From NCBI RefSeq assembly GCF_015560805.1, contig NZ_JADMSO010000008.1:62001-126000 (forward strand): a stretch of DNA of 64,000 bases, read 5' to 3'. The position numbers and the translations under genes were made by a program. Under the pieces are notes generated by a model, which ran no database searches, had not been told where the DNA came from, and saw nothing but the letters and a program-made list of their open reading frames with translations. Shown piece after piece: positions 33,071 to 64,000 of this stretch (the first letter of the stretch is position 1; each line of letters opens with the position of its first letter). Source of the DNA: Mediterraneibacter glycyrrhizinilyticus (GTDB taxonomy: Bacteria > Bacillota > Clostridia > Lachnospirales > Lachnospiraceae).

Positions 33071-33074
33071 AAAT

Positions 33075-33163
33075 CACCGGAAGTGCCCAAAGGCACATTC
33101 CGGGATTGTAAGCAGTCGCCAAGGTCTCGGGCAAGCCCGGACTTTGGTTCGTCGCCTATACAA
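33075..33163 (-). repeat. 89 bp two-hairpin element, copy A
   Basis: Identical at 86 of 89 positions to the sequence at 63434-63522, in inverse orientation. Read on the - strand it starts TTGTATAG directly behind the rpmB terminator T-run. Hairpin 1 is built on GCCAA...TTGGC with inner CGGGC/GCCCG, and hairpin 2 on CCGGAA...TTCCGG with inner GTGCC/GGCAC. The 5' TTGTA can pair with TACAA between the hairpins. It encodes no protein here. Confidence 0.9.
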
Positions 33164-33164
33164 G

Positions 33165-33201
33165 AAAAAGACTCAATATCCATACGATACTGAGTCTTTT
33201 T
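33165..33201 (-). terminator. Bidirectional terminator behind rpmB
   Basis: A perfect 16 bp stem (33165-33180 with 33186-33201) has A-runs on one side and T-runs on the other, so it can work for rpmB on the - strand and for transcripts from the left. Confidence 0.85.
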
Positions 33202-62637: not shown

Positions 62638-62688
62638 GAGAAATATAAGAAGAAAAACAGGAAAGTAACCACAGGGATGTGGTATATT
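62623..62688 (+). promoter_or_regulatory. TTAAG direct repeat and -10 of the GT51 gene
   Basis: CTTAAG occurs at 62623-62628 and 62633-62638. A -10-like TATATT lies at 62683-62688; no good -35 is present, suggesting an activator. The repeats lie 60 and 50 bases upstream of the -10, as in the two promoters at 63533 and 63933. Confidence 0.55.
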
Positions 62689-62720
62689 GGAAGCAGGCAG
62701 AATACAAAAGAGGGAGTAAG

Positions 62721-63572
62721 ATGAGAACAATCAAGAAAATAATCAAAAAAACGATCGGTGTTTTGTTTTTGGTACTCCTGATCATTGGCGGTGTGATCGG
62801 ATATAAAGGATACGAGCGATATAAAGAGGTGCTGGAGAAAGTACCGCTGCAGGAAAAAATAGCGGAGATCCGGCAGAAGCCCTCTTATACGGAAATAGAA
62901 GATCTGCCGCAGATTTATCTCGATGCGGTCGTGGCTGTGGAAGACAAAAGGTTTTACCATCATCCGGGCATCGATCCGATTTCTATCGCGCGGGCGGTCC
63001 GGAATGATATTCGGGCGCGTGCGCTGATCGAAGGCGGGAGTACGATCACACAGCAGCTGGCAAAGAATCTGTACTTTGGGCAGGAACAAAGTCTGAACCG
63101 GAAAGTAGCTGAGGGGATGCTGGCTTTTAAGCTGGAATGGAATTATACAAAAGAAGAGATTCTGGAATTATATGTGAACAGCATTTATTTCGGAGACGGG
63201 TATTACTGTGTGGAGGAAGCAAGCTACGGTTATTTCGGAAAACCGCCGTCGGAAATGACCGCTTACGAGAGCACGATGCTCGCAGGAATCCCGAACGCAC
63301 CGTCCGCCTATGCGCCGACGGTCAGTATGGAATTGGCGGAGGAACGGCAGAAAAAAGTATTGGAGAGCATGGTAAGAGAAAAATATCTGACAGAGGAAGA
63401 GGCTTTGGAGATTCAAAACTCCAAGGTCTCTTTTTGTATAGACGACGAGCCAAAGTCCGGGCTTGCCCGAGACCTTGGCGACTGCTTACAATCCCGGAAT
63501 GTGCCTTTTGGCACTTCCGGTGTTTATACCTTTTTAATGGCAGTACAAGATGGCTTAATACCGATTTTATAA
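62721..63572 (+). CDS. Monofunctional peptidoglycan glycosyltransferase (GT51) with an abnormal C-terminus
   Basis: Polymerises lipid II into glycan strands. The 283 residues have a short cytoplasmic tail, one membrane helix (about 10-28), and a complete GT51 domain: the catalytic Glu74 in VAVEDKRFYHHPGI, GGSTITQQLAKNLY, RKVAEGMLAFKLEW, and ELYVNSIYFGDGYY. No transpeptidase domain is present. From about residue 227 the frame runs through a terminator-like hairpin (63399-63435), and from about residue 238 through the 89 bp repeat, so the final about 46 residues are probably not native. The original stop likely lay at the T-run. Function of the GT51 domain should be kept. The ATG at 62721 follows AGGGAG. 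Confidence 0.85.
   Translation: MRTIKKIIKKTIGVLFLVLLIIGGVIGYKGYERYKEVLEKVPLQEKIAEIRQKPSYTEIEDLPQIYLDAVVAVEDKRFYHHPGIDPISIARAVRNDIRARALIEGGSTITQQLAKNLYFGQEQSLNRKVAEGMLAFKLEWNYTKEEILELYVNSIYFGDGYYCVEEASYGYFGKPPSEMTAYESTMLAGIPNAPSAYAPTVSMELAEERQKKVLESMVREKYLTEEEALEIQNSKVSFCIDDEPKSGLARDLGDCLQSRNVPFGTSGVYTFLMAVQDGLIPIL
63399..63435 (+). terminator. Terminator-like hairpin inside the 3' end of the GT51 frame
   Basis: A 12 bp stem (63399-63410 with 63419-63430, two G-U pairs) with an 8 base loop, followed by TTTTT (63431-63435). It lies upstream of the present stop codon. Confidence 0.65.
63434..63522 (+). repeat. 89 bp two-hairpin element, copy B
   Basis: 86 of 89 bases match copy A (33075-33163, opposite strand). 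As there, it starts TTGTATAG at the end of a terminator T-run. It contributes codons to the GT51 frame and ends next to the promoter of the following gene. Confidence 0.9.
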
Positions 63573-63587
63573 GAGATTCATTATAAT
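63533..63587 (+). promoter_or_regulatory. Activator-type promoter of the TPR-like gene
   Basis: TTTAAT (63533-63538) and CTTAAT (63554-63559) precede TATAAT (63582-63587). The region 63531-63589 matches 63942-64000 at 47 of 59 positions. A further half-site expected at about 63522 is degenerate, where the 89 bp element ends. Confidence 0.65.
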
Positions 63588-63614
63588 AAGGCTGTAAGTA
63601 AGGAGGGAACAACA

Positions 63615-63932: not shown

Positions 63933-63998
63933 CTTAATGGGTTTTTAATAAAAGCGCAGGATGACTTAACACCGATTTTATAGAAGATTTCTTATAAT
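63933..63998 (+). promoter_or_regulatory. Activator-type promoter for a gene beyond the window
   Basis: CTTAAT (63933-63938), TTTAAT (63944-63949) and CTTAAC (63965-63970) precede TATAAT (63993-63998). The first two are 11 bases apart. The downstream gene is not visible. Confidence 0.6.
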
Positions 63999-64000
63999 AA

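Follow-up and report, generated by a model that had tools for sequence, protein, structure and literature searches.

A two-hairpin repeat family of Lachnospiraceae at terminator-like hairpins, and its possible mobilization by group IIC intron-type machinery

Results

Two copies of a two-hairpin repeat in the window

The window, a stretch of 64,000 nucleotides from a 3.0 Mb genome (G000), carries two copies of a short structured repeat, one within the 3′-terminal part of a transglycosylase ORF and one 3′ of the terminator of the gene for ribosomal protein L28. The features are as follows.

63434..63525, + strand: element copy 1, about 92 bp, TTGTATAG...TTCCGGTGTTT
63449..63479, + strand: hairpin 1 of copy 1, GCCAA.GTCCGGGC..GCCCG.GAC.TTGGC, from the consensus fold and homologous-helix covariation
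63490..63525, + strand: hairpin 2 of copy 1, from the consensus fold and a genome search with hairpin 2
63396..63435, + strand: target of copy 1, a 15-bp hairpin running into a T-run, −21.8 kcal/mol
33072..33163, − strand: element copy 2, about 92 bp, ending ...GGTGATT
33164..33201, − strand: target of copy 2, the intrinsic terminator of the L28 gene, T-run TTTTTC, −20.4 kcal/mol

A recount finds 3 differences in 89 positions between 63434–63522 (+) and 33163–33075 (−), in agreement with the 86/89 identity given in the initial annotation of this DNA. The 89-bp unit described there is three bases too short. Across 45 right flanks the right end GATT shows 96–100% per-base conservation and, because the conserved stretch reaches ...GATT, we set the repeat unit at about 92 bp. 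Copy 1 ends in GTTT, and most copies end in GTGATT. The left end is TTGTATAG in the copies of G000 and ACGCGAG in the wide family. The two-hairpin fold drawn initially is borne out by the consensus, whose 92-base form has a computed energy of −45.4 kcal/mol versus −25.2 ± 3.1 for shuffles (z = −6.6); the last three bases of the unit (ATT) can pair with the AAT that precedes hairpin 2.

Both copies had been placed behind terminators. For copy 2, behind the L28 gene, this holds. For copy 1 it does not: its target hairpin and T-run lie within the 3′ end of the transglycosylase ORF (62679–63572; PF00912, nearly full length) and form no separate terminator, and copy 1 supplies the C-terminal tail of that reading frame. 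A promoter-like stretch ending TTATAATAA also occurs twice in the window, at 63549–63589 and 63960–64000, about 410 bases apart.

Copy number and variants in the genome

Far from being present only twice, the repeat is found throughout G000: the hairpin-1 core matches at 54 places with at most three mismatches (reversed-pattern control, 0) and the hairpin-2 core likewise at 54 (control, 0), and 56 BLAST alignments fall within 55 loci around core matches. The 44 ungapped copies show 99 differences from the consensus over 92 positions each, or about 2.4%. Single changes in the stems leave 22 A·C and 14 G·T mispairs, which indicates decay after insertion without a strand-specific RNA constraint.

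Truncated and tandem copies occur, and some variants carry a third hairpin, on either side. In the tandems of L127, L134 and L142, the second copy starts at the foot of the first copy's hairpin 2 and then T. One subfamily of G000 (L046, L048, L050 and L055) has an additional 5′ hairpin resembling GTGTGTCCAGCGAARCTGGACCACAC; three of its members (L046, L050 and L055) contain CCGGTGCAAGTCCGG, much as some group II introns in these loci do at their start. Solo hairpins 2 were found at C23:179925 and at C7:5676; the latter was considered as the end of a longer element but judged by eye to be a local duplication next to a tRNA gene.

Insertion sites

The element lies in one orientation, within the T-tract that adjoins a hairpin's 3′ foot; the hairpin is mostly terminator-like. 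When the 45 bases to the left of 49 distinct G000 copies with an intact left end were folded, 45/49 reached −8 kcal/mol or lower, as against 15/48 right flanks, 6/48 right flanks read inward and 18/49 shuffled left flanks; the four left flanks without a hairpin are those of L008, L030, L032 and L039. At least five T's in the last eight bases were present in 34/49 left flanks, compared with 6/48 right flanks, 6/48 read inward and 2/49 shuffled. In a second set, 103 copies from named genomes, the same threshold was reached by 90/103 left flanks (right, 22/70; right inward, 19/70; shuffled, 30/103), and five or more T's were found in 53/103 (right, 8/70; right inward, 4/70; shuffled, 10/103). The hairpin and T-run therefore lie to the left, on the element's strand. 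The agreement of the two sets, with most copies behind terminator-like hairpins, supports the initial proposal that insertion is targeted to terminators.

The bases just before the junction are also constrained. Among the 116 different left flanks collected for the wide type, the last four bases are ATTT in 67, TTTT in 25 and GTTT in 9, and at least four T's followed by ATTT were found in 32/117 element flanks versus 4/240 generic sites with a strong hairpin and T4. The ATTT is thus at least partly a target preference and perhaps partly element-borne: of the two empty sites described below, site 2 had ATTT and site 1 had none.

With ORFs called naively, the nearest upstream ORF points toward the element for 129/182 copies (45/54 in G000, 65/98 in other named genomes and 19/30 among 30 loci of G137 and G300), compared with 115/200 generic hairpin and T sites. 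This enrichment is mild, and therefore transcription through the site does not seem to be required for insertion. Replication was considered in G300 and G137, with the origin located by GC skew of 20 samples and with 25 of 26 G300 matches (one weak match dropped) and 56 of 64 G137 matches (two on one small contig and six weak matches dropped). Elements are co-directional with replication in 22/25 and 42/56 cases and genes in 178/203 and 144/193, so that neither genome shows a replication-strand bias beyond gene orientation. A crude count of terminators found 34/65 and 34/66 to be co-directional (versus elements, Fisher p = 0.0016 and 0.009); because the finder accepts bidirectional hairpins, no conclusion is drawn from this difference.

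Filled and empty sites

In the metagenome-assembled genome S22M, one repeated stretch occurs in both filled and empty forms. Site 1 is filled in L113 and empty in L138, L158 and L166: the filled form reads CTCTC-TTTTT-[ACGCG...CATAGA]-TTGTGTATG versus CTCTC-TTTTTTT-GTGTATG in two paralogues, the third having eight T's, which gives T counts of 5 + 2 filled and 7, 8 and 7 empty. Site 2 is filled in L138, L158 and, with another right flank, L166, and is empty in L113: CTTTCGATTT-[ACGCG...CATAGTA]-TTCGCC versus CTTTCGATTTTCGCC, or 3 + 2 T's versus 4. Inspected by eye, site 2 adjoins a long inverted repeat at its 3′ foot, not a compact terminator. The T counts at both sites imply that target duplication is absent beyond perhaps one T, the gain being 0 to +1 T. 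The host repeat itself (L113, L138, L158 and L166) is about 270 bp long and has inverted ends, AATCGAGAGGTGT...ACACCTCTTTCGATT.

Both pairs are repeats within one assembled genome, and they probably represent gains rather than losses of the element. Together with the 54 copies in G000, they support the mobility proposed initially. The empty sites, the tandem copies and the copy in an ORF end speak for mobility and for a preference of the element for a hairpin foot followed by T's.

Three loci in one 18-kb stretch (sites A, B and C) were compared in the window's own genus as well. At site A, 10 relatives have alignable flanking genes and none of them carries the element, but the intergenic DNA is unalignable; sites B and C had one and zero usable relatives. 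In the site A gap of L238 (G009), a different hairpin-rich insert with CTTGGCGCCGACCGCAGCGGAG stands where G000 has the element.

Distribution and conservation of the fold

The element forms a family of short non-coding repeats of about 92 bp that is almost confined to Lachnospiraceae in the samples searched. Whole or partial matches to the wide type occur in 44/299 genomes of the bacterial family, an assignment based on relatedness to named loci, and the type found in the window's genome matched none of 24 genomes from other families of the order. Among named genomes, the wide type matched 87 stretches; of the 80 listed, nearly all bear names that we take to be Lachnospiraceae or are titled Clostridia. 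One listed match is titled Bacteroidia and has flanks that resemble a Lachnospiraceae record, so it is likely a case of mis-binning. No plasmid matched either element type; 10 of 50,697 phage records matched the wide type, and three patterns gave 0, 4 and 0 stretches in IMG/VR.

A covariance model built from relatives only recovers the G000 copies with E-values down to about 2e−11. In a phylum sample, where stricter filters were in force, it matched 3/398 genomes, one of them outside the family. In a set of 27 diverse copies, pairing holds in 93.0% of 918 cells, and 12 of 34 pairs have changed on both sides, compared with 4.0 ± 1.4 in shuffles (0/500 as high). Slid structures reach up to 10 pairs changed on both sides but are at most 46% paired. 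The covariation score was 0.150 versus 0.086.

Rfam gave no match across the window at the gathering score and, when relaxed to E = 10 over 201 bases around copy 1, returned three matches at chance level, none of them to a group II family. The open-access literature, a scope outside which most subscription journals lie, yielded no description of the repeat. The element thus appears to be unnamed so far, as the initial annotation had supposed.

Comparison with known repeats

REPs are 20–40 bp long and carry GTAG or CGTC as an unpaired tag, and their RAYT is a Y1 transposase, according to the sections consulted of a REP/RAYT study whose main text does not contain the word terminator (PMC3733652). 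Like REPs and BIMEs as described in those sections (PMC3733652), the element is short, palindromic, extragenic, located 3′ of genes, present in many copies and presumably non-autonomous. Unlike a REP, it is 92 bp long with two hairpins, its consensus lacks the tag, and G000 has no RAYT (Y1_Tnp) match. As a miniature IS200/IS605 element it would be expected to share its ends with an autonomous Y1 insertion sequence, and none among the 30 Y1 loci listed does so; the absence of target duplication would fit. A MITE of a DDE transposase does not match either: by eye the ends are not mutual inverted repeats, and no target duplication is seen.

RUP is a MITE with inverted ends, which the element lacks. 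RUP, BOX and SPRITE of pneumococcus (PMC3049150) resemble the element as small interspersed Firmicute repeats, a comparison by description only. The bcr1 and other repeats of Bacillus cereus are 100–400 bp long, restricted to one group and associated with a T-rich TTTAT motif, and their movement mechanism is unsettled (PMC6542083, in part). They resemble the element as chromosomal repeats of one group and are set apart by description, not by sequence, in that the excerpted portion of the same source mentions no terminator targeting (PMC6542083).

Comparison with group IIC introns

The closest likeness is to group IIC introns. These introns produce no target duplication, a property that the element shares in its two filled/empty pairs. 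They are described in a review as inserting at intrinsic terminators (PMC4424553), and in a published structure that of Eubacterium rectale docks a DNA stem-loop with the IBS1 sequence CTTT (PMC10190682). The element, like these introns, occupies a T-rich site behind a DNA stem-loop, mostly a terminator-like one, in one orientation, with hairpins in 45/49 and 90/103 left flanks. Unlike these introns, it is about 92 bp long, has no ORF and matches no group II domain. In particular, the Rfam search of the window and of copy 1 detected no catalytic domain V, 92 bp is too short for an intron-encoded reverse transcriptase (RT), and the one RT of G000 is retron-like. With regard to GU...AY ends, G000 copies read GT...AT if the flanking T's are taken as target; the wide family begins ACGCG and ends AGT. 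The element may work like a group IIC insertion but, as neither the RNA domains nor such an RT were found, is no member of the group IIC introns.

Group II introns of the family were examined at eight 5′ ends, seven found by the pattern of a GYGYGCC hairpin plus GGTGMAAGT and one seen in L230. Seven of the eight lie no more than about 8 bases behind a hairpin (six by folding, L230 by eye); the remaining one comes after another intron's first hairpin. The three introns of the RF02003 class (L247, L229 and L230) have a junction of [AG]TTT followed by GCGC, near the element's ATTT followed by ACGCG; those of the RF02001 class do not. On our reading of ORF size and site, the introns at such sites would be group IIC; Rfam gives only the D1-D4-3 and -4 classes. 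In G137, moreover, a left junction resembling that of the element runs into a group II intron remnant at L229:7631–7890; Oliverpabstia L137 carries a degenerate element at the corresponding terminator. Group II introns lie at L229:19560–19900 and L230:16700–17300, one of them sitting behind another's 5′ hairpin. Searched for RTs, G137 yielded one ORF of 606 aa, located elsewhere than those introns.

Candidate enzymes

In the genomes and loci searched, no transposase or intron-type enzyme could be linked to the element. G000 has no Y1_Tnp match at E ≤ 0.001, and across 299 genomes Y1_Tnp is not enriched in element-bearing genomes (28/44) relative to all genomes (174/299), so that no Y1/RAYT association is seen. 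An autonomous relative with the same ends, for which the initial annotation proposed a search, is not among the 30 family Y1 loci listed; these gave only two short hits, of 22 bases in L202 (apparently coding DNA) and of 19 bases in L217 (E 0.11). In G036, one copy has a Y1 gene some 1.6 kb away; this gene was set aside, an unrelated long ORF lying between.

Of 30 genomes chosen from the 44 element-bearing ones, 21 have an RVT_1 match and 9 have none. The single RT of G000 (L070:1333–2532, L101:2650–3849; C11:167317) is closest to the retron St85 model, just under the cut-off, and its frame continues into a ferredoxin-like domain. It was rejected as mover: no element lies nearby, and 7 kb contain only a 26-base hit at chance level (E 3.9). 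Between a gene and this RT, at L101:2020–2190, is a multi-hairpin stretch with palindromic ends (AACAGTTCAG...CTGAACTGTTG) that is perhaps another repeat. Because 16/44 genomes are without Y1_Tnp and 9/30 without RVT_1, neither enzyme is present in every host today; the mover may have been lost after the spread of the element.

Discussion

We infer that the element is mobile and non-autonomous. On balance we think this reading, of a terminator-preferring mobile element, probable, if not strongly so. As for the machinery itself, a group IIC intron-type ribonucleoprotein that would act in trans to insert the element is our first choice, though judged somewhat less likely than not. The fold, with its outer stem, hairpin 1 and hairpin 2, would be the feature selected for movement, and the element would move as a folded single strand. 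We rank this machinery first because the target shape, the orientation, the lack of duplication, the bases before the junction and, if the flanking T's are target, the GT...AT ends of the G000 copies are alike. Several observations weigh against it. RVT_1 is missing from 9 of the 30 element-bearing genomes searched and the RT of G000 is nearest a retron; the element has no group II domain, and the wide family does not have GU...AY ends; the stems in G000 lack a strand-specific RNA signature; and four of 49 left flanks in G000 have no hairpin. A bolder reading, which we regard as conceivable but somewhat unlikely, makes the element a bacterial SINE: a 92-nt structured RNA, with neither protein nor ribozyme core, of which group IIC machinery makes DNA copies at terminators, using the same stem-loop and NTTT target. 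Such a SINE would have spread across Lachnospiraceae and formed subfamilies of its own in different genera.

Other routes can account for part of the data. The targets of IS200/IS605 elements need no hairpin, and a miniature relative of these or of REPs, whose ends a Y1 (HUH) transposase would join behind a T-rich target as single-stranded DNA, is unlikely in view of the lack of Y1_Tnp in G000 and 15 other element-bearing genomes, the lack of enrichment and the Y1 loci listed, at which no element was found beyond the two short hits. It would nevertheless be consistent with the two hairpins, the T-rich left flank, the missing duplication and the Y1_Tnp matches in 28/44 element-bearing genomes; the folds further suggest that T's from either end might base-pair with an internal AA. 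Movement could also proceed with no dedicated enzyme at all, if replication stalled at the hairpin foot and the nascent A-tract annealed to the right-end T's of another copy, copied it and returned through the left T-run. Such a route covers the hairpin and T-run targets, the fixed orientation, the T's on both sides, the lack of duplication, the tandems and the lack of a common enzyme. We consider it quite improbable, as a two-base homology at the right end is little, the precise ends, the ATTT preference and the covariation go unexplained, and there is no additional replication-strand bias.

Two further readings would dispense with movement of the short form. The element could be the degenerate, immobile descendant of a group IIC intron that has lost its catalytic core, as the shared type of site, the GTGYG-hairpin-CACAC and CCGGTGCAAGTCCGG of L046, L050 and L055, which are like group II starts, and the junction in L229 might suggest. 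The empty sites, however, indicate that it is the short form that inserts. When the loci were searched by BLAST with non-coding end sequences from six group II introns, the hits were confined to L229, L230 and a 26-base match in L174 stemming from outside the intron, and no ordinary element was hit; such a descent seems very unlikely. Least credible of all is a functional structured RNA or DNA site that was never mobile and is retained at the 3′ ends of genes. The covariation and the position behind terminators would suit it, but the filled/empty pairs, if gains, contradict it, as do the divergence of only about 2.4% at unrelated loci, the copy at a coding end and the truncated and tandem copies.

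Trans-mobilization of a non-autonomous element remains the explanation we prefer. The repeat appears to be a widespread small mobile element in Lachnospiraceae, a major family of the human gut. To our knowledge, a target rule of hairpin foot and T-tract is otherwise found mainly in group IIC introns. The element marks terminators and can give genes new C-termini, and it offers a testable case for structured elements mobilized in trans in bacteria. If the proposal is true, the element would be a bacterial counterpart of SINEs, taking over its choice of target from a retroelement.
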